From Phorcus lineatus (Eukaryota; Mollusca; Gastropoda; Trochida; Trochidae), in the NCBI GenBank assembly GCA_921293015.1, contig OV121097.1, forward strand, positions 13,145,940-13,209,939: a DNA stretch of 64,000 nt. The letters are read 5' to 3'. Shown here in pieces: positions 18,201 to 51,200 of this stretch; positions within the stretch are counted from its first letter, which is position 1, and each line of letters starts with the position of its first letter. The translations under genes and the position numbers were made by a program. Below the pieces are notes generated by a model. That model saw nothing but the letters and a program-made list of their open reading frames with translations. It did not search any database and was not told where the DNA came from.

Positions 18201-21200
18201 ACTATTTCAGCTAATTCCCTAATAGCATGTAGAATGATATTTATGTTTAGAACATATTTTAGGAGAAAAAGATTCAAATTAAATTAAATACATACAAATA
18301 AGGATACAAAAGGAATTGTTCAAAATCAAAATTATGCACATCAAATGATTCCAAATCGACTTTTTAGAGTAATATTTCAGAATTTTGTAAAAACCTTTTT
18401 CAAACAGATAACAAAATGACAAACTGACAAAAAAAGAAACTTAGAAACCAAATTAATTCTAACTGAAAATATTCCTACACAAAGATCCATAAAGACATTC
18501 CTTGAATAGTTACTGTCACAAAGTAAAGCCTCCTTTGCCATTATGAGAGATGCTTGAGATACAGCATGGCATTCCATAGAACCGTCACAGCCAGCATCTG
18601 GCAGAACATGAACAGACACAGATGTCTGGTCACTCTAGTGTGTCTGTACAGATGTCTGTCGAAATGTAAACAGAATAAACTTCCGCTAAATATTAACCCT
18701 GAGACGTCAGAGTGCATTACTCTAATATGTTGTGTGGAAGTCGAGTTTGCTAACTAACTCTAAATCGCTAATGGAACACATATATTTGAATCACTTCTGT
18801 GTGTAAGGGTTTTACAAGTCTGCCACAGTTCTCCATTCAAGTGACATCTAAATCCTTATGAAAAAAGTCTTGGTTTCTTAATTATTGTGAAAAATGGATT
18901 TTTTTGGGAGAAGAGTCAGTCGATGGTGACTAATTTGGAATCCGGATAGCCCTGCATCACCAAAGCAGACGTTCAAAACACATAACTATTCCCATGTTTG
19001 CTAATGCTGACATGTCACCCATCAAATGCCGTATCAACTTTCACCGTTTGAGTGTTTGAAAATACTTAGTGATATTCCATTCATTATTTTTCACAAAATG
19101 ATCACAATATTTCCCATTGAAACAGTTCTTACTTCTTGAAAATTCTGCTTTCTTTGTATCAAGACAAAATCTCTTATAGAAATTAGGAATCACAAAAAAA
19201 GTTGCAGTTGATTATCCATTAGTAAATGATCACACCACATCCACTGACATACTGAGACATACAAAATGTGCACCACTTATCACATCATACAGGACCAAGT
19301 GCTTCCTTGTTCAGGTCAAGATGCAGGAAATTGTAAACTATATCATTTTAATATCCTCTTTAGCATTCTCACAAGAAAAAGATTTTTATCTATTGGAGTT
19401 CAGCAAGAGGAGTTCTTGAAAAGAATCTTTGTCCCATGTATCAATTTGAGCATCAGTAACAGCATCAGAGTTACTCTTCAAGAATTCATGATGATTTATT
19501 TACTTCAATCAAGCATTCCATATCAGGAATATATAAAAATGATATAATCTCATATTAAATTACATAAATAAGAAAATGCCATTCTTAACTAAACAACAAA
19601 TCTTCTTCGTACAAATGTCAATCTTCAACTTGTGAAAACACTCCAAGAGCCTACTTTTATGAAAGATTTAAATCAATTGTCAAATATATCTGTATTGCTT
19701 GAATAGAGGAAATTCTTCATTGGCATTAATTGTACCAAGCAATTGGATGGGCTAGCCAAAGCATTTAATTGCTGAGCACAAACCAGGGTGCCAACCCTTT
19801 TCGTAACGTTTGACCAGGAATCGAACCCTTTCCTGAGGAGCAAAGGCTCTACCGGCTAAGTTACATCTTAATTCAACCCTTGGATTCTGTTTTTTTGCAA
19901 ACAGAAATTGTTGATTTTTAAATATTTAAAAATATGGTCTAAAAATAATTTCTCATATATCGCCTACCATATTGATAACATCAAGAGTAAGAAATATCAT
20001 TTGCAAAACATTTGCTTGTAAAAAATATTCCAATCAGACACATCTGAAATAGATTCACTTTCACTTCCTAATTCCTTATAAGTTTTATGAGTGCAACATG
20101 TCTGCCTTCTAATTTGACCTCTAGGTTAAACTGTCAACTGATACTTTGTTTAATTATTCACAACAAGTTTTGCAATGAGCACGAAACTTGATATTTGAGG
20201 GCAAATCATAAATGTGTAGGAAGGCAAAGACTATGTATAATTAATGTCCATGAGAAGATACACAGGTGCGAAACATTTACTACTGAATTATTACATTTGC
20301 AATATGAGCAGAAGTCAACAGCAATTTGGAAGAAAAATCATGAATGTCTATTTATGGCTTCAAACTGTAAAAATTCCAAAAACACTTTCTAATGTTTTTT
20401 CAACACCAGCAAACAAAATGTTGTTATTCTCAAGTCATGAAATGTATTCATGATAAATAATAAGTTGTACCAAACATCAAAATATTCTAGACTTTATTGA
20501 ATCCCATCTACTTCAAGGAAATGAGTCACTAAACATAACCATGACTCGCACCAATGGAAACAAACTCATGTCACAGAGGAATTCAAAGATATCTCTTAGA
20601 AAGAATTCACCATCATGTCGGAAGCATGCAAACTTGTTCATCTATTAAATGGCACAAGATTTCAAAACCATCTGAATATATAAGTAACAATTCAACACAT
20701 GAGGATGTAAACTGGATAAGCAATCTCCAACAAATATGTATGTAATGATGTGTATGTCACAAGGTGGAGCAACGTAACAGGAAGTTGTTTATTTCGGAGG
20801 TATGGGGAGGGGGAGTAACAATCCATTTCCTTCCTCTTACAGTCTTAATTGAAATATTTATTTTGACAAATGCTCACACTGTGAGTGTTATGTCATAAAT
20901 CATATGCTTTTCATAATCATTGCAAAAAAAATTCTATTTCTTTGTGAAATGCATATATGAGTGGATTTCAGAATTCGTCACTTTTTAAGTCCTTTCCTCC
21001 TCCCATGTACAAGGACTTATAAAATTGCATTTTTATTAATTCTGAATTATTATTACACATTTTCTGAACAAGTGGAGTACTATTTACAATTTTGAAAATT
21101 AATTATAATATTTTTTTCAGCATTTTAGTTGCCAATATTGGTCTAAATGCCCTGTCCCTGGGTGACCCCCACTCTCTGCTATGTTCTAAAACTCACAAAA

Positions 21201-24200
21201 TTTAACAATATTTTTTTGGTTTTCATGTTGTTCTGCTTTCCTTAGACAATAAACTTCAACCAACTATGATCAAGTTCGAGTTTCATTAATATTTTATTAT
21301 TTTTTTCTTTCAAAATATGCTTGTCCCTGGAATTCATGTCCTGACTGTTACCAATGTTAAAAATGCCAAAAATGAGGTCTCCCTCATGCTGTCTTGTTAC
21401 TCTACTTCCTGTTCTGGAGAGTTTACTTCCTGTCAAGCCATTTGAATTAATGGATTGAAGCACCAAGCTGTTTTAAAGACATTTTTCCCATTTGAGGAAA
21501 GTAGAATTACACCTAAGTCACCTTTTGTTGTCCTTCACTGTTACCAATACTTTATATTGAAAATGCGCATTTTTTGCAATACTAATTCATAAGATATACC
21601 TATTTGTGTGAATAGTAGCTGATGCCATGTGCTCTTCAGATTCATTGGGGCTCATCATTATTTTAACTGTGATTGAATTAAAAATGTCCCGACTGTTATT
21701 GTCCTGACCGTAACCACACACAATAGTAACGGTCAGGACAAAAATAGTAACGGTCAAGAAAAAATGATCACATACATGTAAAGCAAATACGAAATTTATC
21801 TTTTGATTCAGAATAACTTCTCTTAATTTATTAAGTTTGAACCCTTTGACCACTCAGCCTACTATCTCACAATCAAACAGATAAGAAATGTGTTAAAAGG
21901 TTAATAAGTTGGTTTGGGGTAACAGTCAGGACAAAAATAGTAACAGTCAGGACGAAGTTGTTACAAATTTCATGAAAACATTAAATTCTTATTGTTATTA
22001 TTCAAAATGGCAGTCTCTAATTTATTTATTGTTTACTGCTACGTGTACTTAAATCCATTTTGTACGAAAATACAGGTGACAAATTAAAGAACACTAGATA
22101 AGTTAATTTCCAGTAACAGTCGGGACAGATACCAGTAACAGTCAGGACAAAACTTTTTTTTTTTGCATAATCAAATGAAACTTTTAATTTGTAATAAAAA
22201 CATGAATGTGTATCTAATGCGTGTTAAAGTAAGTAATACTTACAACATATGATTTGCAAAAGACTAGATAAACAATTTGATTATGATTAAAACAAGGCAT
22301 TTGGGTAATGGTCAGGACATATTTGTCAAATACATCTAAAACAAATGAAAAGTTTTACTTTTGATTCAGAATAACTTCTCTTAATTTAGTAAGTGTGAGC
22401 TCTTTGACTACCGAAACCTACAATTTCACAATCAAACAGACATTGAATTAGTTAAAACGAAATAGGTTGATTTTGGGTAACAGTCAGGACAAAATTAGTA
22501 ATGGTCAGGACAAAGTTGTTACAAATTTGAGGGAAAAAAATCATTAAACAATTTTTATTATGACTACGATAGTAGTGTACTTGCACTCATTCCAAAGCCA
22601 TCAGGGAGCAACAATTCTCGACACAAGAATGTGGACCCTGACATATGGAAACTGATAGTGGAAGAATTAGAGCAAAGGAATTCAGACCATACACCTTGAA
22701 ATTAATTAAGCACCCTCCTTATCATACAAAATAAATCTTCATGTAAAGTACTGATTTAACAGTGGCATTTACCCGGTAGTGATTTCATTTTACAGGTAAG
22801 TACTGTTCAGTTGCAGCTGTTCAGTACTTGAAAAAACATCACTTTCCTTTTCAGAGTGGCAGCTGTAACTGAGGTAAATCAGATGAAACAAATATGCTGA
22901 AGTTGGAATTAAAAGGGTGGTGTTACTCTGAGAAAAAATATGCTTACGTAATTTATAGGTGTATAGTTTGAATTCCTATATTGTTTTGCTAAGGGGTCGA
23001 TCTTTATATTACTGGAGAGGTGGGCTTTGATTTATTTTGCACAAAATATGTCACCAAAATTTTCTCTTATAATATTTTGTTCAAAGCCTGGGCAAGAAAA
23101 ATGTTGTCCAAAATTTGTTGAACAGCTTAGAAAACGGAAGAAAGTAATTTTTATTGAAGGTGACTGAGTCTGAAAAAATAATCAATCATCACCAAAAATT
23201 CAATCCAATTCCCCCTAAAATATAATGGTCGGCCCCTAAAAAAAAATTTCAATTGATAGATTTCAAGTTAAAATGTTAATGTTAATTGGTAATACATGTA
23301 CTATACTGGTATTATGTTAACATTAACATCTTCTAGTCAAAACTGGTACAGTCAGCAACCAGATATATTTTGCTGAAGTTACTTATGTTTCAAGTTACTT
23401 ACTTAGTTTCAGTTACCGTATTGATGTTAGTCTGTTATCTATGGCCCTTGTTGTATCAGGAATTTATTTGTAATGTTACAGATGTTTTTTTAAAAATAAT
23501 TGGTTTTTGACTTAAAACAGAGCTATCAAAGAATATCTAATTGCGGTCAAGAAAAGATACCTATTTTATTGTAATCTTCCAAAATATGAAAGATTACTGT
23601 TTTCTTTAAACGTCCATATGACGGGTTTTAATATACATATGAGTATGTAAATGTCCTGACTGTTACCATATTTGTCCTGTACTGTTACTATTTTTTGGGT
23701 ATGCATCACCTGCAAAAAAATACAGTATCTTCATGACTGTTTTGCACAAAATGCTTTAATTTGTTACCATCTTTTAAAATCATATCTCAAATGTTAACAA
23801 AATATTGTGTTCTTTCACAAAGTTGGTCTTGTTACCAAGGGGGTCCTGACTGTTACCTAAAGTGTCCTGACTGTTTCACAAACCCGTAAGACCAACAACA
23901 GCAATATATCATTTCTTTATTTTAAGCTAATGTAATTTCATTTTAAACTCTTTACTTCTGCTGTGATGTCACAATAACAAAACAAAGTCATTTCATAGGT
24001 TTCCTTAGGTACAATTATGAGTTACAAAAACATATGTCATGACTGTTACCAGTTGTGTCCTGACTGTTACCAGTTGTGTCCTGACTGTTACCACTAATAA
24101 ATGACACCTATTTAATAATACTTGAAAAAAATGCAAGAAATTTATTGACATGAAGACAAAGAAAATCATTATTAGTATAATGTTTTCAGACAAAAAAATT

Positions 24201-27200
24201 TAAAAATTAGCTCACTAAGAAAATAATAAAACTTCTTTGGGTTTTCAGAGTGAAAATTTGCCTGGTTGTTGGTTTAATATGCTATATCTTGTTCTTAATA
24301 CATTTGAAAAGCACTTTAACTTTCATGTTAATATATTAAGAGTTATAAAAGTCCATTTGTAATTAAAATTATTATTTATTGGCAAAGACCAGGATAGTTT
24401 TTTCATGTAATTATCATGGTAACGGTCAGGACAATTTTCATTACTGTTAATTAGTTATGACTCATTAAACACATTACTGTTTACAGTTAAGCCTGCCATT
24501 TTGTATTGTTCGATAATACAATGTTTAAGGTTGTTATTCAAATAAAAAAAATTATTATCACATAGAGTTCATTTTCTGTGTTTGAGGTCTTGAAAAAGTG
24601 ACGAATTCTGAAATCCACTCATATCTGATAGAGTTCTGACAATGTTTCATAGTATCAAAACTCATGATATCTAATCTGACTATATACGTATCCTGATACG
24701 GTCTCTGTATCATGATACCTATTGTTGACTTGAGATTTTTTTATTTTGTAGGGTGCTCGTCAAAAGTTAAACCTTTTTTTTTATCAAGCATCCCTGAAAA
24801 TAGTGTATCAAGATATTTGGAGAATTCTGATGACTGATTCAAGACTGTATCGTATTGTAATGAGATGTTTTGATACGCAACATAACGAGAAATATCTGTA
24901 TCGTCACATATGATATTTGGAGAGTTCTGATGAGAGTTCTAGATACATAGCAAATCTTTAAAGAGCATATACAAGCTTTAAAGTCATAAACCCTATGCTT
25001 TTTAATTTAACATATATTTCACAAATCTATTTTTACTCAAGTTCCTATTTATATTTGGAGACTGTCAAGAATACTAATGACTTTTGAGAATACAAAACAA
25101 GTCTCAAAGAGGCATTGAAAACTAACAATAGAAAAGTTTTTGTTCAATGAAGTAAAAAATCTCTACAAAAGCATTAAATCATCCATTAGTTACCATCAAG
25201 CATTTCCATCACACATATTCATGATCAACACTTATTCATACAGTTCCTCAACCCCTGTCATGAGGTTAGTTGTGCTAACGTGAGAATGTATCACAGCTCT
25301 GTGTGGTGTCATGTTGCTTCCTATCTTCAATAGCTTCTAATAAGTGTCAATCTCCTATGCTTGGACTTGGAGCCTGTGGTCCTGATAGAGGCTAGAATAA
25401 CATCAAATATTACAGTACTTAGAGAAAACCCTCATTTTGACAAGCAGGTCTCAATCTTAGCTTGTAATAAATTTTCTGATTTAATAACGCATGTTCTTCA
25501 TATATATAATTAAATATGAACAGCTGTAATGAGAGATCTACTGGCTTATTGTTTCAGAGTATTTCTACATCTGCATTTAAATCTCATAACCTCTGACATT
25601 TCATGTAAGGGAATCGTTACAAATATATATATCTATCATTCATGGCCTAATAACTGACACATTTTGCATTACTTGAAAACTTATAAATGTATCTTGAGAT
25701 AATTTAACATATTTAAGCCTAAAATCTAAAATGATGTGTTGCAGTGATGCCATTTTATTTATACAACACTTCTATTACCTTGTTGAGCGAACAGGAAATA
25801 AGAGAAATATGATAATTCGATCAACAATAATGGATAAGCTAGATTGCCCCGGAAATTATTATTTGAAGAATGACACTTGGACTGACATGTAATTAAGGAA
25901 TATGATAATAGATGACAATGTCAATTTGTTACATTTAATTATCTCATAAATACTTACAGGAATACGGGTAATTAATATTTTTTGCTGACACTATGAAAAT
26001 TACCTATGTTGCTTTAAATGTTTGTTATAAATATGAATACTCCTTGCTTCATAAAATTTTGGACATCCCACCTAGAATGTTTTGATAAATAATATTTTAA
26101 ATATTTCAAAATGAAATGAGTTAGGAAAATAATCCATGAACTACCCAACATGAATTGGACAAATTTGATTACATAGAGTTTATTAGACATCACTCCTTAA
26201 AAAATGAATAATTTTCTTCCACCCATAACCTGTGCACAACATAACCAAGACTTCATCAGGAAATTTTAATATTTATTTCTACAACCCTTTTATACCTATA
26301 TAGTATTACTGTCAAAGTCTTGTCTCTAAAATAACAACCAAGATTTTACGGTAATTACCGTTTACCAGTTTTTCACAATTGATTCAATTCTTAAGGGATC
26401 AGAAAAGCCTGTGGTTAGCAAGTTTGACTTCGAGGTCCAGGGTTCGGATACCGCTAGGCGCTAAGCAACTTTGTCTGGAGTGGAGAACTGTTCTACACTC
26501 AGTAAGGTTCAGGTGCAATGCTACACTGAATATCAGCGCAGTACTACCCATGGTTTGCTAAATATTTCTAACAGGTACATGCACAATGCACAGCCACAAT
26601 AGTGTTGCAGGCTTTCACGCTGCAACAATACTAGCAGCTGAGCATAAATGAAATACTCTTGAAGGCAGTGCTAAACCCAAAATAACTTAACCTCATTCTT
26701 CGATTCTGTAAAACAAGACAAATATGCTATCAATGACCTCAACCAAAATGGTTCTGTATCTTAATTCAACAAAATCTATAATTGGTGATAGCTGTGAATA
26801 TTCATGTATACAAGAGTCATAACCAGTACAAACCAGAGCCTGGCACCTACATACTTATCTCCTGACAACTGATAACGAGTTGAAGAGTAATTACATGTTA
26901 ATTAGAAACACCGCTCAGTGTTTTCCTAACATCTCTAACACTAACAAAACTCCAGCTGTGGTTCTATTGCTGTTACTTTGAAGATGAAGCATGAAAAGGA
27001 AATCACTGCTTCTGCTTCTATAAAGACATCAGAACTTACAAATATGATTATTATTCCAACAGAGTTTGATTGAACATAATTTGTTAAATAAGTTATATGT
27101 TTGGGTTTGTTGAATGCAGCTAAAGTTGAATACTTAAAAGAGCAAATAGAATTTTAGCAAAAATGAAAATACAAAAACACTTACTCCAAAGGGGAAGAGT

Positions 27201-39210: not shown

Positions 39211-42200
39211 GTACAATTATTACCTTTTTGACCATATAGCAAAATTGTTACCTTTTTGGCTCATTTTTTATTAGCTGCAAAATGACTTATTTAAGACTGT
39301 TAAAATATTAATTATCATTAAGCTAATAATAAAAAGTGGTTTTGAACAGTTAATTGTTATTTTTGAATTTTTTATGAGAATTATATTTTTTGTGAGCCAA
39401 AAAGGTGGAGCCAAAATTGTTAGGCATTTTTGTTCAAGCAAAATTTACAATTTTGGCTCTTAGCAAAATTATTACCTTTCTGGCACACCATGTTATCGCA
39501 TATATATTACAGTTTTGGCACCATGTAAATAAGCACAATATAGTTATTCCAGTAGATTCTATTATTTCTTTCATATATAAATTGTTCTAAACCTAATTGT
39601 ATGCATAAAAATCTCAAAAATGTGCCGTTTTACATCCTACGGTAAAATATTCATCATTCCTTCTCTCCCCAAAACTCATTTAGGTAATAACCAATATTCA
39701 AGAGTATTTCACTTATTCTGTGGCTGCTAATATTATTGGAGGGAGAAAGCCCACAACACCATGGTGGCCATGCAATACGGTGAAGCCTGTGAAACCTGCA
39801 AGCATCGTGCATCTGCTGGAACTAGCAAACCATTAGTGGTAGTGCAGTGAAATTCAGTATTGCACCAAAATAACTCAATGCGTGTAGAACAGTTCCCTAC
39901 TGCAGACAAAGTTGCCAAGCCTCTGGCAGGATTTGAATTCTTGAATTTCAAACATTGACAGCCGGAAAGTCAGTTTGCCATGAGCATATTTCCCTTTTCA
40001 ATAATTGCTTAATCAAACTTAATACATCACAGATATGCCTTTTTTGGCTTAGCCTTATGCTTGATTAACCTTTATATATCTTAAGCCAATGATTTCAACA
40101 AATTTATGTAACAAAATGTTTTTACTGCTTCACAGTCATGTTGAAACAGAAGACATAAATGATTTGATTATTTTTTATTGCAAACACAGAAATCTGTATA
40201 TTGTTTTTTACATGCATTTTGATGAGGCTCTTGTTGACAGAAGTATTGGAAAAGACAACCAATAACAAGAGCACAGGCCTTGATCGTTTCCACTGAAGTT
40301 GCCACTATGATCTCCTGAAACAGAACATGAAGTTCCATCACAATGTCTCTGTAGCTCTGTAAATATCAAAGAGCTATAACTCAATAGACATGGCATGGAA
40401 GGACAAGCTATACAAGCAATCCCAAATGGCAAATTATCATTTGAATATCGAGGAGAAAGCAGAAAAACTTTCACTTAAGCAGATGAAGACTGATTATATT
40501 TAAACGTTTTGATGTCGGGTCAAAAACAAATAAACAAAAAAATATTTTCAATATTCACATTGATTTTTTTAAATAACAATCTAGAACATTAAGTCTCATA
40601 ACAAAGGTGTTATTCTGAACAAAACTTTCCACTACCAACATCCTGCTACATCAGCGTATTTGTCTCTGCCCACCTCCATCATATACCCTGATACCCTGAT
40701 ATCCTTTGGCCTAAAACGCTTGTATCGCTAAATATAGCAAGCCAATGAAATGACTCGCATTCAGCAATAGCGACTTCAAAGAAATGTCAATTTAGGCAAT
40801 AAATAGCCATGAGTAACCAGCTGTAAGCAATACAAGCTGAGTCTCAGCTAGGCGGAGACAAAAACGCTGATGTAGCAGGATGCACTACAAACTGGTCTTG
40901 GTTAACCATCCTATAGTTGCACCCCTGCAACACCCTTATCTGTTAGATCATCAGTGAGATTTCAGATCTTATCCAGAAGAGGTCTGTTCAAAATTATGCA
41001 ATTTTACAATCTCTCAAAGTACAAAAGAAATTACAAATCAAAACTAGAAAAGGAATCATTGCTAGTATGTCAAACTTCTAGCATATATATTACCATTTTG
41101 GTTCAATATGTATATATTTAAGATGAGATCTGTTCCAACACTTTCCCTTTGACACTCTCTCCAAGTCCAAAGAAGCAGTTTATATTCTACAGATTAGTAT
41201 CTTAGCTACAACAAGAGCCCAACTACAAGTAGATCTTACTTATTTATCTTACATATTTATTACCATTTTGGCTCACAAGCCCTTAGGATTACATCTCAGA
41301 TGAGATCTGTTCCGACTTTGGCCTTTTGACACTCTCTCCCAGTCCAAAGAAGCAGTTAATATTCTACAGATAATTATCACAGCTACCACAAGAGCCCAAT
41401 TACAAGTAGCTCTTACTTCTAGTATATAAATTACCATTTCGGCTCACAAGCCCTTAGGATTATAGCTGAAATCTATTCCAAATAATATATTTTGAAACTC
41501 TCTCCCAGTCCAAAGAAGCAGTTTATATTCTATAGATTAGTATCACAACTACTATAAAAACTGAATTAAAAGTAGGTATTACTTTTAGCATAAATGCAAA
41601 CAAGGCAACAGGAATATATCTCAGATGAGACCTGTTCCAACTTTTGCCTTTTGACACTCTCTCCCAGTACAAAGAAACAGTTTACATTCTACAGATAAGT
41701 ATCAAAACTACTACAAGATCTCAATTACAAGTAGTTCTTACTCCCTTATATATATATTACCATTTTGGCTCACAAGCCCTTAGGAATACACCTTAGATGA
41801 GACCTGTTCCAACTTTTGCCTTTTGACACTCTCTCCCAGTCCAAAGAAGCAGTTCATATTCTACAGATTAGTATCACAATTTCCATAAGAGCTCAATTAC
41901 AAATAGGTCTTTCTTCTAGCATATATATTACCATTTTGGCTCACAAGCCCTTAGGAATACACCTTAGATGAGATCTGTTCCAACTTTTGCCTTTTGACAC
42001 TCTCTCCCAGTCCAAAGGATCAGATTATATTTTACAGATTAGTATCACAATTTCCATAAGAGCTCAATTACAAACAGGTCTTTCTTCTAGCATATATATT
42101 ACCATTTTGGCTCACAAGCCCTTAGGAGTACATCTCAGATGAGACCTGTTCCAAAGTTTGCCTTTTGACACTCTCTCCCAGTCCAAAGAAACACTTTATA

Positions 42201-45200
42201 TTCTACAGATTAGTATCACAGCTACCAGAAAAGCCCATAATTACAAGTAGCTCTTACTTCTAGCATATATATTACCATTTTGGCTCACAAGCCCTTAGAA
42301 TTACATTTCAAATGAGACCTGTTCCAACTTTTACCTTTTGACACTCTCTCCCAGTCCAAAGAAACACTTTATAGTCTACAGATTAGTTTAAAAATACCAT
42401 AAGGGCCCAATTACAAGTAGCTCTTACTTCTAGCATAAACATTACCATTTTGGCTCACAAGCCCTAAGGATTATATCTCAGATGAGATCTGTTCCAAATT
42501 ATGCTTTTTACAATCTCTCCCTGTCCAAACCAAAACACATATACTCTACTGATAAGTATCACAATTACCAAAAGAATTCAAAATTACAAGTAGCTCTTAC
42601 TTCTAGCATATATATTACCATTTTGGCTCACAAGCCCTTAGGAGTACATCTCAGATGAGACCTGTTCCAACTTTTGCCTTTTGACACTCTCTCCCAGTCC
42701 AAAGAAACACTTTATATTCTACAGATTAGTATCACAGCTACCAAAAAAGCCCATAATTACAAGTAGCTCTTACTTCTAGCATATATATTACCATTTTGGC
42801 TCACAAGCCCTTAGGAGTACATCTCAGATGAGACCTGTTCCAAATTTTGCCTTTTGACACTCTCTCCCAGTCCAAAGAAACAGTTTATATTCTACAGATT
42901 AGTATCACAGCTACCAAAAAAGCCCATAATTACAAGTAGCTCTTACTTCTAGCATATATAATACCATTTTGGCTCACAAGCCCTTAGGAGTACATCTCAG
43001 ATGAGATCTGTTCTAACTTTTGCCTTTTGACACTCTCTCCCAGTCCATAGAAACAGTTTATATTCTACAGATTAGTTTAAAAACTACCATAAGGGCCCAA
43101 TTACAAGTAGCTCTTACTTCTAGCATAAACATTCACCATTTTGGCTCACAAACCCTAAGGATTATATCTCAGATGAGATCTGTTCCAAATTATGCTTTTT
43201 ACAATCTCTCCCTGTCCAAACCAAAACACATATACTCTACTGATAAGTATCACAATTACCAAAAGAATTCAAAATTACAAGTAGCTCTTACTTTTAGCAT
43301 ATATATTACCATTTTGGCTCACAAGCCCTTAGGAGTACATCTCAGATGAGACCTGTTCCAAATTTTGCCTTTTGACGCTCTCTCCCAGTCCAAAGAAACA
43401 CTTTATATTCTACAGATTAGTATCACAGCTACCAAAAAAGCCCATAATTACAAGTAGCTCTTACTTCTAGCATATATATTACCATTTTGGCTCACAAGCC
43501 CTTAGGAGTATATCTCAGATGAGACCTGTTCCAAATTTTGCCTTTTAACACTCTCTCCCAGTCCAAAGAAGCAGTTAATATTCTACAGATAATTATCACA
43601 GCTAGCACAAGAGCCCAATTACAAGTAGCTCTTACTTCTAGTATATAAATTACCATTTCGGCTCACAAGCCCTTAGGATTATAGCTGAAATCTAATCCAA
43701 ATAATATCTTTTGAAACTCTCTCCCAGTCCAAAGAAGCAGTTTATATTTTATAGATTAGTATCACAACTACTATAAGAGCTGAATTAAAAGTAGGTATTA
43801 CTTTTAGCATAAATACAAACAAGGCAACAGGAATATATCTCAGATGAGACCTGTTCCAACTTTTGCCTTTTGACACTCTCTCCCAGTCCAAAGAAACAGT
43901 TTACATTCTACAGATAAGTATCAAAACTACTACAAGATCTCAATTACAAGTAGTTCTTACTCCCTTATATATATATTACCATTTTGGCTCACAAGCCCTT
44001 AGGATTACATCTAAGATGAGATCTGCTAAAACTTTTGCCTTTTGACACTCTCTCCTAGTCCATAGAAGCAGTTAATATTCTACAGATTAGTATCACAGCT
44101 ACCACAAAAGCCCAATTATAAGTAGCTCTTACTTCTAGCATAAATATTACCATTTTGGCTCGCAAGCCCTCAGGATTACATCTCAGATGAGATCTGTCCA
44201 AATAATGCCTTTTGACACTTTCTCCGAGTCCAAAGAAGCAGTTCATATTCTACAGATTAGTATCACAATTTCCATAAGAGCTCAATTACAAACAGGTCTT
44301 TCTTCTAGCATATATATTACCATTTTGGCTCACAAGCCCTTAGGATTACACCTTAGATGAGATCTGTTCCAGCTTTTGCCTTTTGACACTCTCTCCCAGT
44401 CCAAAGGATCAGTTTATATTTACAGATTAGCATCACAATTTCCATAAAAGCCCAATTACAAGTAGCTCTTACTTTTAGCATATATATTACCATTTTGGCT
44501 CACAAGCCATTAGGATTCCATCTCAGATGAGATCTGTTCCAACTTTTGCCTTTTGACACTCGTTCCCAGTCCAAAGAAACACTTTATATTCTACAGATTA
44601 GTATCACAGCTACCAAAAAAGCCCATAATTACAAGTAGCTCTTACTTCTAGCATATATATAACCATTTTGGCTCACAAGCCCTTAAAATTTCATCTCAAA
44701 TAAGACCTGTTCCAACTTTTGTCTTTTGACACTCTCTCCCAGTCCAAAGAAACAGTTTGTATGCTACAGATTAGTATCACAATTTCCATAAGAGCTCAAT
44801 TACAAACAGGTCTTTCTTCTAGCATATATATTACCATTTTGGCTCACAAGCCCTTAGGAATACACCTTAGATGAGATCTGTTCCAACTTTTGCCTTTTGA
44901 CACTCTCTCCCAGTCCAAAGGATTAGATTATATTTTACAGATTAGTATCACAATTTCCATAAGAGCTCAATTACAAACAGGTCTTTCTTCTAGCATATAT
45001 ATTACCATTTTGGCTCACAAGCCCTTGGAATTACATTTCAAATGAGACCTGTTCCAACTTTTACCTTTTGACACTCTCTCCCAGTCCAAAGAAACACTTT
45101 ATATTCTACAGATTAGTTTAAAAATACCATAAGGGCCCAATTACAAGTAGCTCTTACTTCTAGCATAAACATTACCATTTTGGCTCACAAGCCCTAAAGA

Positions 45201-48200
45201 TTATATCTCAGATGAGATCTGTTCCAAATTATGCTTTTTACAATCTCTCCCTGTCCAAACCAAAACACATATATACTCTACTGATAAGTATCACAATTAC
45301 CAAAAGAATTCAAAATTACAAGTAGCTCTTACTTCTAGCATATATATTACCATTTTGGCTCACAAGCCCTTAGGAGTACATCTCAGATGAGACCTGTTCC
45401 AAATTTTGCCTTTTGACACTCTCTCCCAGTCCAAAGAAACAGTTTATATTCTACAGATTAGTATCACAGCTACCCAAAAAGCCCATAATTACAAGTAGCT
45501 CTTACTTATATTACCATTTTGGCTCACAAGCCCTTAGGAGTATATCTCAGATGAGACCTGTTCCAAATTTTGCCTTTTAACACTCTCTCCCAGTCCAAAG
45601 AAACAGTTTATATTCTACAATTTAGTATCACAGCTACCAAAAAAGCCCATAATTACAAGTAGCTCTTACTTCTAGCATATATATTACCATTTTGGCTCAC
45701 AAGCCCTTAGGAGTACATCTCAGATGAGATCTGTTCCAAATTTTGCTTTTTGACACTCTCTCCCAGTCCAAAGAAACAGTTTATATTCTACAGATTAGTA
45801 TCACAGCTACCAAAAAAGCCCATAATTACAAGTAGCTCTTACTTCTAGCATATATATTACCATTTTGGCTCACAAGCCCTTGGAATTACATTTCAAATGA
45901 GACCTGTTCCAACTTTTACCTTTTGACACTCTCTCCCAGTCCAAAGAAACACTTTATATTCTACAGATTAGTTTAAAAATACCATAAGGGCCCAATTACA
46001 AGTAGCTCTTAATTCTAGCATAAACATTACCATTTTGGCTCACAAGCCCTAAGGATTATATCTCAGATGAGATCTGTTCCAAATTATGCTTTTTACAATC
46101 TCTCCCTGTCCAAACCAAAACACATATACTCTACTGATAAGTATCACAATTACCAAAAGAATTCAAAATTACAAGTAGCTCTTACTTCTAGCATATATAT
46201 TACCATTTTGGCTCACAAGCCCTTAGGAATACATCTCAGATGAGATCTGTTCCAAATTTTGCCTTTTGACACTCTCTCCCAGTCCAAAGAAACAGTTTAT
46301 ATTCTACAGATTAGTATCACAGCTCCCAAAAAAGCCCATAATTACAAGTAGCTCTTACTTATATTACCATTTTGGCTCACAAGCCCTTAGGAGTACATCT
46401 CAGATGAGACCTGTTCCAAATTTTGCCTTTTAACACTCTCTCCCAGTCCAAAGAAACAGTTTATATTCTACAATTTAGTATCACAGCTACCAAAAAAGCC
46501 CATAATTACAAGTAGCTCTTACTTCTAGCATATATATTACCATTTTGGCTCACAAGCCCTTAGGAGTACATCTCAGATGAGATCTGTTCCAAATTTTGCC
46601 TTTTGACACTCTCTCCCAGTCCAAAGAAACAGTTTATATTCTACAGATTAGTATCACAGCTACCAAAAAAGCCCATAATTACAAGTAGCTCTTACTTCTA
46701 GCATATATATTACCATTTTGGATCACAAGCCCTTAGGATTATATCTCAGATGAGATTTGTTCCAATTTTTGCCTTTTGACACTCTCTCCCAGTCCAAAGA
46801 AACACTTTATATTCTACAGATTAGTTTAAAAATACCATAAGGGCCCAATTACAAGTAGCTCTTACTTCTAGCATAAACATTACCATTTTGGCTCACAAGC
46901 CCTAAGGATTATATCTCAGATGAAATCTGTTCCAACTTTTGCCTTTTGACACTCTCTCCCTGTCCAAATCAAATCACATATATACTCTACTGATAAGTAT
47001 CACAATTACCATAAGAATTCAAAATTACAAGTAGGTCTTACTTAAAGCATATATATATTACCTTTGTGGCTCACAAGCTTTTAGGATTTTATCTCAGATG
47101 AGATCTGTTTCAACTTTTGCCTTTTGCCATCCTTTCTCATCAGCCTATCTATAATGGTCGCGTGGTTCCTGTGGTCCCAAGAGGTCATGGTTTCACCAAA
47201 TCTATATAATAGAATCCCCATCAAGTCTCTATACAAGATTTCACCTTTTTTGGCCTCTGGCTTCTGGAGAAGAAGATGAAAATAGGCTTATAGGGTGTGG
47301 ACCCTTGAGGTCACATGGTCAGAAGTATTTAATTAGAATCCTCATGCAGACGGACAGATGTCAAATGAGCTAAATTGTGAGGGGATGCCCCCAGGCCCTT
47401 ATGAGGGGCAACAGGGTAAAAAAAATCTACAATTTTAAATACCTATTTGCCAAGGTGTTTGATCTTAGGATTTTAGGTGTATAGAGCCAATGGATTTAGA
47501 GAGGAAGTAAAAAATAGAGCCATGGGCTCTGTAGTTCATCACACTTTTGATAGGAATAGGTGTTTGGGTTTAGACCATGGGGTCATGGGCAGTGTAGGAA
47601 AGATAGCTTGTCCCAACGTCCGAGACGGGTAACTTTGCTTGAGGACGGGCTGTAAAATTATTTAGTCTGTCCTTGTGTCGGGCCAATTTTGTCTAACCAT
47701 AAATGCATTTATATCTAATAACCCCGAGAGAAAAAATAAACAAAAGTAAATAGCCACATAAATTACGGACTAAAGGGCACTTGGCAGGTTTTGTTCATTA
47801 ATAATTCAATTACAGCAAAACTAAAATATTTTTTTTCAAATTATGCTCTCTTGGATAAGAAAATTCAGATATAAGTAAATCAAATCAAGTGACAAACGTG
47901 TTTACTTGTGTCAAGCAACTGAAACGTCAATCAAAGTCTTAGTCGACCTAGTGAAATAGCTGAAAGATTGCCGACACGCTAAACACAAACTCACTCACAC
48001 CAAGCTTGAGGGATGGACAAGACTTTAGACAGTGTTTGAAGGGCTAAAAAAAAGTCGATTGATTTCCATAAATGCATCTATCTTAAAACAAATCCCTAAA
48101 ACTTTATGATTCAGTTTTGATTCAAATTTTGTCACTCCATGATCCCTACATGAAAATGGACGTGTCCATCCATGCTGAGAGAGGGGACTGATGATGTGTT

Positions 48201-51200
48201 TTTGGGTCAAGGGGTCACCGAACCTACAATTCAGAATCCCCATTGTCTAAGGAGTCTACACACAACAATTAAGCTATCAAGGCCTTTTGGAACTGGAGAA
48301 GAAGATGAAAGTAGGATTTTAAGGTTTTGACCCCTCTGACCTCATTTGGGGTCAAGTGGTCACCAAACCTACAATTTAGAATCCCCAGTGTCCAAGGAGT
48401 CTTCACACACCTTTTCAGCTCTCTAGACCTTTTGGAACTAGGGAAAAAGATGAAAATAGGTTTTTCAGGTTTTGACCCCTCTGACCTCATTTGCGGTCAT
48501 GGGGTCACAAAATCTACAATTAAGAATCCCCATTGGCCAAGAACTCTACACACAACTTTTCAGCTCTCTGGACCTTTTGGAACTGGAGAAGAAGATTAAA
48601 ATAGATTTTTAAGGTTTTGACCCTTGTGACCCCATTTGGGGTCATGGGGTCACGAAATCTACAATTTAGAATCCCCATGTGCCAAGGAGTATGCACATAA
48701 AATTTCAGCTCTCTAGAGTCATTGGTTCTGGAGAAGAAGTCGAAAAAGTGAAAAGTTTACGGATGGACGGACGCCGGAAGCCATGCCATTCCATAAGCCC
48801 ATCGGGTCTTTCAGACCTGATGAGCTAAAAATGTTAAAAGTTTACAGATGCGGGACAACATGCCGTGATGTAAACCATCGGCATAATCAAAGTCTACATT
48901 GGTGCCGAGGAAACAGAAAAAAATAAAATTGATATAGAACTTAAACCCACAAAAGGGGCATCTACATGAATAATAGGGAGAATACCAAATATAGTGAGGA
49001 TGGGTCAAATGATGGTAATGATATGCTCCAGAAAAAAACCTGACCCTTCTGAGTCATGGCCTAGAAATTAAAACATCTTGGAATCATGTACATCATGAAA
49101 TTATGGTCGGATGCTAATACATTATGTCTCTCGAATTGCTTTTTTGGGAAAATTATCACTAAAAAGTGTTACTATATCACGTAAATTCAAAACATATATC
49201 ATATATATGAACATTTGTGAAGCCAAGCCCATTTGTCTGACTAGCCTATTGAAGACACAACTGAAACTAACAATGAAAATAATAGTAGACTTTTCTCCCA
49301 AACCTGCAATGTCACTTTGAAAGGGTGAAAGGAAGGCCAGGCCTGCAAGCAGTCACTTGAGGTCGAGTCCTGCTGCTCGTCCTTGACAAAATCGCGTAAC
49401 TATAAAAATAATATAAAACTTTTAAGTTTGAAACAGTAAGTAACTTAACATCAATAGTTACAAACAGACTGAGTAAGCTGTGATATAAACTGATTATGAT
49501 AATGAATTTTAGTTTTCAACATATCATTAATCACTCACATTTTTGCGTAAGAAATTGAAATATCAAAATTTGTCAATATATTCTGAAGCTGTCTTTACTT
49601 ATATGCCATGTTACAAATATTTGTTACAACCATTTGAAACATTAACTGGAGTTGAAAGTAATCACTAAATACATTAAAATAGCTGAAACATCTGGAAAAA
49701 CTATTTTCAAACTACCATACCAACAGTCATTTACATATTCTGATCCTTACAGACCTGAATTGGACAATGTGAACAAGATTTTATGCAAGGACATAAAATA
49801 TGTAATTTACAAACTATACCGCGTCACGTATGACATAGACTGAACATTATTTGTTCAATGCATTGCGTGCAAAAGTAACTTGTAAGTTGAAAAAGCTAAT
49901 GATGGTTAGATATGCTGTTGAATCTCTGTTTTCAGCTAAAAAGGTCTCTTGCTTCTGGAGAAGATGAAAAAAGGCATTTGGGGCAGGGTCCCTGTGGCCT
50001 AAATAAAGGGTCACAGGGTCACCAAATTGATAAATTAGAATCCTATCAGCTAAGGAGTCTATAAACAAAGTTTCAGGCCTCTTGCTTCCAGAGAAAAAGA
50101 TGAAAATAGGTTTTAAGGCATGACCCTAGTGGCACTTATTAGATGTCACAGGATCACCAAATCTGTAAAGTAGAAACCTCATTAATCAAGGAGTCTGTAG
50201 CCAAGATCTCAGGTTTCCTGAGCCAATGGTTCTGTAGAAGTAGATGAAAATCTCACAGATGCTGGACACTGGATGCCATGACATTTAATAAGCCCATTTG
50301 GCCTATCAGGCAAGATGAGCTAAAACAATACAAGTATCCAAGGGTTGCAGATGATATTTTAATCATAACCAACAGACGTTGATGTATTAGATTACAGAAG
50401 ATATAAGGTTTAAATATTATTTGTCATCTGAAAATCTTTCCTCAACAATTACATGTAACATAATTAGTCTCTAGACAGAAATCTGCCATTATTGTTTCTT
50501 GAGTAGTGAGGGCACATCAATCAGATTTCATCCCCAATCTCATTAGAATAGTATCTAAAATTCGGTTGTTTAAAACTTACCCAGAGTGCTTGATCGTTTA
50601 AGATCTCATGCTTTCAGCCTGATAAAGACATCCTGATGACCTGTGGCCTGGAATAGACCCCAAATTACTCTGCACAGCGTTAGGTTATCATCCATGGGGA
50701 CAAGCAACTCGTTCAGGTTTCATAAGATCTTCAGTTCACTTATCCACCATTGACCTGAAAAAAGCAGAATGAAAGTTTAATAGAAAATACTTAAAGTGGG
50801 TGAATTGGAGTCAAATATGTGCGCACACTGATTCAGTATTGTCACCACCTCTGGTGTGCAGTACACAACCAAAAGCACTTAAGAGAACCCACAAATCTAT
50901 TGGTAAATGACTGTTGGTGGGCATATGAAAACATGCAAACACCTAGTTGGGAATACAGCAATAGCAGAATAATTGTTCAAAATCATGTGACAATGTGTCC
51001 CAATTCATCCAGCTTTGAATCGGTACATCGCAAAAATGTGCATGAAACTTGGACCTGGTGCATTAAGGTGCAAATGTTGCATACTCCATAAGAAGCTGAT
51101 GTTGAAAAAATGTGTAATGAAGGGTGATATCAAGTGATTGAGGGGAAAAAAAGCCTGTATGAGCAGCAACGCTGGATTTTGATATTTTTTGGATTTTTAT

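Follow-up and report, generated by a model that had tools for sequence, protein, structure and literature searches.

Subterminal transposase sites are a known phenomenon in DNA transposons, and an element of 3662 bp in the gastropod Phorcus lineatus raises the question of what such sites would be doing in pairs 21 bp apart that recur at 190-194 bp. The element occupies positions 20959-24620 of a stretch of 64,000 bp (C39:13145940-13209939, termed the window) and has the target duplication ATAT on each side. It is a recently mobile, non-autonomous cut-and-paste transposon that probably arose by loss of nearly all of its transposase gene. An enzyme of a Sola2-like clade encoded in the same genome would probably mobilise it in trans, with its 15-bp sites as putative transposase platforms. 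The spacing of these sites is conserved in distant relatives even where the intervening DNA has become unrecognisable, suggesting that the spacing itself may be needed for jumping.

The element and its site map

An earlier sequence-only reading had delimited 20955-24624, which corresponds precisely to the element together with its two 4-bp target duplications. The 35-bp inverted termini that it described are real and 97% complementary, but this span includes the target duplication, and the terminal repeat of the element is about 28-35 bp long. In the host genome (958 Mb, 74 contigs), the terminal repeat GAGTGGATTTCAGAATTCGTCAC gave 46 matches forming 23 left-right sets, 45 of them exact and one with a single change, while the reversed control gave none; beyond these sets, two lone matches with three mismatches were found elsewhere. 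The genome search and the definition of the target duplication suggested by that reading thus yielded 23 copies sharing both ends, 22 of which are flanked by perfect 4-bp duplications: ATAT in 14 cases and AGAT, GTAT, ATGT (twice), AAAC, AGGT, ACCT and AACT in the other eight. L014, with flanks AATA/TATT, is the only copy without a clean duplication, and in no other copy is the first base of a terminal repeat changed.

Since the mean identity among the 21 aligned copies is 0.992, the family is young and recently mobile. Two of the 23 copies, L021 and L022, were left out of the alignment owing to nested insertions of ~2.4 kb, and their matched ends overlap by 17 bp and 4 bp, respectively. The inverted ends, the fixed-length duplication, the multiple copies and the lack of an intact transposase are those of a non-autonomous cut-and-paste DNA transposon. 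At each of three site positions (21760, 21924 and 24039), the window copy and three others of the 21 aligned differ from the remaining 17. A 13-bp insertion near ~23168 is present in 17 copies, and these splits probably reflect two subfamilies.

With up to three mismatches allowed, the 15-mer matched 20 times in the window and 19 times inside the element, against a mean of 1.6 in shuffled whole windows, none of which reached 20 in 100 shuffles, so that the count of about 20 copies given earlier holds. The phasing was compared with 10,000 random placements of the same 19 sites of the element. Seven same-strand pairs stand at 21 or 22 bp (six at 21, one at 22; random mean 0.09, maximum 3) and eight at 190-194 bp (random mean 0.21, maximum 4), and both spacings claimed in the sequence-only reading are therefore far beyond chance. 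Its orientation scheme was only partly right, as the element is not simply one block facing each way: each end, read inward, has outward-facing sites followed by inward-facing pairs. The features are as follows.

20955-20958, no strand: left target-site duplication ATAT (identical 4-bp flanks in 22 of 23 copies)
20959-20986, plus strand: left terminal inverted repeat GAGTGGATTTCAGAATTCGTCACTTTTT (inverted-repeat comparison and genome census of ends)
21337-21351, minus strand: outward-facing 15-bp site 1, 393 bp from the left end (15-mer scan, site model)
21529-21544, minus strand: degenerate outward-facing site 2 with one extra base, at the site-2 position of the relatives (GTAAC match; missed by the family site model)
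21685-21714, minus strand: outward-facing sites 3 and 4, 15 bp apart, at 21685-21699 and 21700-21714 (15-mer scan, site model)
21726-21761, plus strand: inward-facing pair 1, at 21726 and 21747, 21 bp (15-mer scan, site model, spacing test)
21919-21954, plus strand: inward-facing pair 2, at 21919 and 21940, 21 bp (same evidence as pair 1)
22113-22149, plus strand: inward-facing pair 3, at 22113 and 22135, 22 bp (same evidence as pair 1)
22305-22319, plus strand: single inward-facing site, at the start of a repeat of 21747-21978 displaced by 558 bp (15-mer scan, repeat comparison)
22477-22512, plus strand: inward-facing pair 4, at 22477 and 22498, 21 bp (same evidence as pair 1)
22592-22699, plus strand: what remains of a transposase-like open reading frame (ORF), namely its final codons and stop (matches to the C-terminal ends of relatives)
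23652-23688, minus strand: inward-facing site at 23652 with a degenerate partner 22 bp on (15-mer scan, tandem-repeat scan, GTAAC match, site model)
23842-23877, minus strand: inward-facing pair, at 23842 and 23863, 21 bp (15-mer scan, site model)
24035-24091, minus strand: inward-facing triplet, at 24035, 24056 and 24077, in 21-bp steps (15-mer scan, tandem-repeat scan, site model)
24419-24433, plus strand: outward-facing right site, 202 bp from the right end and 328 bp beyond the last inward site (site model)
24593-24620, minus strand: right terminal inverted repeat (inverted-repeat comparison and genome census of ends)
24621-24624, no strand: right target-site duplication ATAT (flanks of copies)

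The spacing of the 15-mer does not vary freely between copies. Few length changes relative to the window copy were found inside the arrays of the 21 aligned copies out of 23, namely a 4-bp insertion in two copies, an 8-bp deletion in one and a 1-bp insertion in one, and another 1-bp insertion, present in two copies, sits just beyond the last left pair.

Site spacing in related families

A second family, comprising L024, L029 and L030, carries the 15-mer GTAACGGTCAGGACA and the ends GGGTGGAATTC in the same arrangement as the window element, and L024 is flanked by ATGC on both sides. Exact paired sites gave 73 genome matches, all of them in these two families, and none in the control. A genome search with the L029 core resulted in 114 matches, from which whole loci or left halves were taken, covering families with 29-78% identity. 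The loci were grouped by us into 19 families, with L024 and L029 counted as one; L027 and L028, for which the analysis covered a comparison with the window element and a 15-mer scan, stand outside the counts. Four extra loci meant as new families turned out to be two copies of the L039 family, one copy of the L042 family and L051, which is without the map.

The distance from the outermost to the third site is 343-349 bp in 13 of the 19 families, most of which have transposase cores with 32-57% identity to a single reference. The distances from site 1 to site 3, obtained with the site models, are as follows (bp).

Window 348, L024 348, L029 349, L031 347, L032 347
L033 348, L034 346, L036 347, L037 345, L038 349
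L039 347, L040 349, L042 346, L045 343

In 11 of the 13 families, a distance of 15 bp separates sites 3 and 4; it is 14 bp in L045, and L036 is without one of the two sites. The first inward site follows site 4 by 11-12 bp in the window-type families, 23 bp in L038 and 18-19 bp in L039, L040 and L042, in which the motif is flipped. Worked by hand, L042 was found to keep the mutual spacing of the outward-site footprints within ~2 bp, with its inward pairs shifted by a single 21-bp step. Most partners stand 20-23 bp from each other and most units measure 190-194 bp; exceptions include units of 179-183 bp in L032, which are shorter by about one helical turn, and the irregular steps of L031, L036 and L048. 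In the right array, the last inward site lies 327-328 bp from the outward site in five of seven loci (324 bp in L031, 346 bp in L032), and in the four loci with a known right end the right outward site lies 200-204 bp inside it.

The map as a whole was also sought with exact GTAAC matches. It was fitted with a free offset because the stretch between the left end and site 1 is not constant (367-415 bp across 11 loci, with a difference of 24 bp between L024 and L029 of one family). The 11-site map of the window element was re-found within 2 bp at 10 sites in each of L024, L032, L033 and L037, at 8 in L029 and at 6 in L031, against a maximum of 3-5 in 300 with random positions, and the 13-site map of L042 was re-found at 8 sites in both L039 and L040 (null maximum 3). 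Anchored at the terminal repeat, the window map rose above the offset null in L024 (10/11), L031 (6/11) and L034 (6/11 within 3 bp, null maximum 4), and did not in L029 (3), L037 (1), L043 (1) or L032, L033, L039, L040 and L042 (0). L034 reached 7/11 with a free offset in a register displaced by ~596 bp, and the anchored 6/11 was taken as its score. In total, eight families besides the two references passed the exact-GTAAC test, namely L024/L029, L031, L032, L033, L037, L039, L040 and, in anchored form, L034.

Whether length is kept without sequence was judged from the spacers of seven loci (window, L024, L031, L032, L033, L034 and L037). The three inward pair-to-pair spacers measure 155-158 bp wherever both sites are present (four or five loci each), and their alignments are no better than shuffled (z -1.4 to 2.3). 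The two outer-left spacers measure 174-178 and 140-142 bp and retain some alignable sequence (z -0.2 to 6.0), so only the inner spacers make the case cleanly. We know of no other case in which subterminal sites keep their spacing to a few base pairs among families with inner DNA too diverged to align, and a literature search limited to titles and abstract openings, with most subscription papers outside its coverage, returned nothing on a fixed phased site geometry conserved without sequence.

Several points weigh against this reading. The family-specific site models used seeds selected in part for their spacing, and the count of 13 families includes L038 and L045 through spacing-aided searches only. 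L041 (192 then 172 bp) and L043 (191 then 148 bp, by k-mers) fit in part, and L044, L046, L048 and L051 gave no such map in site-model, k-mer or map fits, leaving six of the 19 families without the full map. Against the random-position null, the exact GTAAC test failed in L036, L038, L041, L043, L044, L045, L046 and L048. The fixed length of the outer-left spacers may in part be ordinary homology. Within the window family, the sites are not significantly steadier than the rest of the element (8 of 285 versus 159 of 3321 columns variable, p = 0.14), a comparison that is uninformative on site conservation because the family is too young.

The dyad pattern was tried as a genome-wide search key and rejected, since it gave 46 matches compared with 95 for the reversed control, that is, no enrichment. 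About 19 of the 46 matches are near-identical, and the one fetched (G000:C1:48276080-48279080, L048) belongs to an additional family that has a GTAACAGTTTTGACA-like motif, shares the dyad spacing (15, 12) and is without the full map.

A possible nucleosome or bend between the pairs

For the periodicity of the spacers, 27 non-redundant ones were kept out of 43. Relative to the sites, AA/TT/TA steps run in a common phase of a 10.1-bp period, a signal that none of 400 shuffles equalled, with a random-phase p of 0.00045 for the 27 spacers and of 0.009 at the level of 14 families. When 12 bp were trimmed off each spacer end to exclude the A-rich motif flanks, p was 0.004 per spacer. GC-rich steps run ~5 bp out of phase with AA/TT (p = 0.004; 16 of 400 shuffles as high), and the spacers between sites 2 and 3 have the same phase (p = 0.003 for 12 spacers; for a strict set of 10, p = 0.036 whole and 0.22 and 0.07 trimmed). 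The phase signal gives moderate backing to a rotational setting of the spacers and does not prove nucleosomes themselves.

The earlier suggestion of one platform per linker accordingly fares unevenly. Phase-locked AA/TT fits a nucleosome between the pairs, whereas on the other side p was 0.08 per family after trimming, the second half of the spacers was significant (p = 0.015) and the first half was not (p = 0.15), and the 188-193-bp spacings gave no phase locking (p = 0.36). TA steps alone were matched by 195 of 400 shuffles and differ in phase from AA/TT, which is not the textbook nucleosome signal and lowers the odds of a nucleosome. The periodicity is also no stronger than in genomic windows of matched composition (p = 0.30).

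The rival that survives best keeps the transposase platform and dispenses with nucleosomes, in that bending and protein-protein contacts would fix the spacing and the 10.1-bp A/T phase would be intrinsic curvature. Phased AA/TT by itself also yields curved DNA, and the signal indeed comes from AA/TT and not from TA; partners 21-22 bp apart are two turns of naked DNA, and the strength of the periodicity equals the genomic background. Against it stand a spacer length near that of a nucleosome core with a short linker, a period of 10.1 and not 10.5 bp with GC-rich steps in antiphase, and the units of L032, which stand at 190-193 or at 179-183 bp, about one turn less. We regard this rival as a genuine possibility, though not the one we would expect.

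Read from sequence, the arrays are most likely platforms for transposase binding, set apart by one nucleosome or a comparable bend. The 15-mers would be bound by the transposase, probably through its basic N-terminal region, with two transposase molecules per pair on the same helical face. Each ~156-bp spacer would keep its length by wrapping as one nucleosome or bending into an equivalent loop, and successive pairs would stack so that the terminal repeats line up in one synaptic complex. The outward sites near the dyad may nucleate this complex, with the terminal repeats brought in last. The sequence-only reading is borne out in part: the element is a DNA transposon, its sites behave as conserved cis-acting platforms would, and pairs two helical turns apart on a nucleosome-length period return in related families with their spacing fixed and the inner spacer sequence changed. 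Transposase binding, its cooperativity and the nucleosomes are the inferred part.

A stronger form, which we offer as tentative and on the doubtful side, is that the ends are measured in chromatin units, with pairs in linkers and exactly one rotationally set nucleosome between them, and that the transpososome would recognise a nucleosome array and not only naked ends. Equally tentative is its corollary that selection would hold the outer 343-349 bp, the ~156 bp between pairs and the 15/12/21 bp round the dyad, while site sequence, orientation and inner spacers turn over.

Transposase relatives and classification

The window element has no ORF of 150 aa. At 22592-22699, it matches the C-terminal end of L032 (12/23 identities, E 7e-07), L029 (14/33, E 4e-07) and, more weakly, L031 (8/19, E 6e-04); because these last transposase-like codons remain, the element appears to be an internally deleted derivative of a coding element. 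An autonomous relative was looked for with partial success. L031 and L034 are complete related elements, each with terminal repeats, GGGTC ends and an ATAT duplication, and their open frames, 1172 and 1265 aa long, encode transposase-like proteins; no coding element with the terminal repeat of the window element was found.

Further points count against movement in trans by a transposase of this genome: the genome census gave no copy combining the terminal repeat of the window element with a transposase gene, and in the L029/L030 family, the nearest candidate mobiliser by site sequence, the coding region is broken into several overlapping reading frames. The empty site of the window copy was not recovered either, the genome search giving only its own two flanks and partial repeats. 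L029 and L030, which lie ~90 kb apart on C25, are near-identical long elements with a common frame break and further breaks in L030, and are probably one copy duplicated together with its surroundings. Searches of IMG/VR and GTDB genomes gave 48 and 77 pattern matches, none confirmed as relatives.

The proteins of the relatives have a basic N-terminal region starting like MALSAAEK, and the site motif shifts from GTAACRGTCAGGACA to GTAACACCANAGACA in L034, GTAACAGGAGGGAA in L037, GTAATGAC in L038 and L041 and GTAACGTAGATTACA in L045. Motif distance tracks how far apart the N-terminal regions are (Mantel r = 0.57 across 11 families, a value that none of 5000 permutations reached). The tree of these regions is weak, with no starred branch; it joins L038 with L041 (84/98) and L039 with L042 (94/92) and does not join L040, the third flipped-motif family, with the latter two. 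A motif that follows the N-terminal region fits transposase binding and not a common host factor.

This bears on the second rival, according to which the sites serve a host protein or the expression of the transposase gene, as promoter, enhancer or insulator, and not transposition. The position of the longer array upstream of the transposase gene in coding relatives speaks for it. Both arrays, including the one beyond the gene, are nonetheless kept where the transposase core has been lost (window element and L024), and families of one genome differ in site sequence, each tracking its own N-terminal region, which one host factor fails to explain. We judge such a role improbable and retain the putative transposase platforms.

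The sequence-only reading had not recognised the family. It can be placed in a clade with a DDD/E-type core that looks Sola2-like, Sola2 being the nearest named group by likeness of features; no Sola model was matched in Pfam or NCBIfam. D205, D286, E319 and D328 are invariant in the four cores aligned, with E319 and D328 both candidates for the third residue of the triad. Bao et al. are said to have reported a DDD-type triad in Sola2 in 2009. The motif GKG..DG.GG..KR is presumably typical of the group. The likeness consists of 4-bp AT-rich duplications, short or imperfect terminal repeats and a large transposase. In the accessible part of PMC3627910, Sola2 duplications are 4-bp AWWT (ATAT, AAAT, ATTT); the window family has the same length and, with ATAT in 14 of 22 cases and eight that do not fit, a looser sequence, and L031 and L034 have ATAT. 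In contrast, no subterminal phased array was found described for Sola2 in that part of PMC3627910 or in the titles and abstracts searched. The portion consulted of PMC10294476 gives 14 curated Sola2 elements in bivalves.

Other systems resemble the element in single features. Galileo of Drosophila, a Foldback-type element of the P superfamily, carries within its long ends tandem repeats with several binding sites for the transposase (THAP), but these lie at about 70, 561-577 and 701-718 bp, the available part of PMC3688188 describes neither paired phased sites nor spacing conserved between families, and terminal inverted repeats of at least 0.5 kb contrast with about 28-35 bp here. Hermes and other hAT elements have short subterminal repeats, asymmetric between the ends and read by an N-terminal DNA-binding domain; theirs crowd near the tips (five in the first 55 bp), with no nucleosome-length period described in the sections seen of PMC10368747.

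Assignment to Ginger or another named superfamily is quite unlikely. A 4-bp duplication is shared with Ginger, and an OTU C-terminal domain occurs in part of that group, which otherwise has TGTNR termini and an integrase-type core (PMC2836005, in the part seen); here, the termini start GAGT or GGGT. Comparison of the coding regions with Pfam, NCBIfam and the Protein Data Bank (PDB) gave nothing convincing, with no integrase match in Pfam or PDB. Set against the OTU or Ulp1 C-terminal domain expected of Ginger, the C-terminal ADGDCLPHTGSVFAFG is OTU-like to our eye and had no match in Pfam.

The already disfavoured idea that the arrays are functionless satellite-like tandem repeats kept by copying and homogenisation, as in the apparently non-autonomous Tetris TIR-220 with its ~220-bp internal tandem repeats (regarded as a satellite seed, with no paired sites described in the part seen of PMC4079207), is very improbable, since near-identical adjacent ~193-bp units in L024 and L037, strictly repeated 193-bp units in L034 and the repeat displaced by 558 bp in the window element are outweighed by spacing that is the same across families with non-aligning inner spacers and by outward sites that are not tandem units and also stand at fixed distances.

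L046 and similar matches at 26-30% identity form a numerous clade of related transposases, the one locus examined being without a recognisable site array, and the array may be a trait of one branch of the clade. Elsewhere in the window, a large tandem array occupies 41121-47126, with a period of ~173 bp (32 copies, 85% matches, from 41610) that is also read as 343 bp from 41121, and a 145-bp tandem repeat of 3.8 copies occupies 48200-48746.

The families with putative transposase platforms form a natural series for a spacing rule, in which site sequence, orientation and unit number vary and the units of L032 are one turn shorter, and the site map offers a search key for related elements missed by ordinary homology. 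The geometry is separated here from the sequence, and this, if true, would provide a way to ask whether a eukaryotic transposase assembles on nucleosome-spaced chromatin and not on naked ends.

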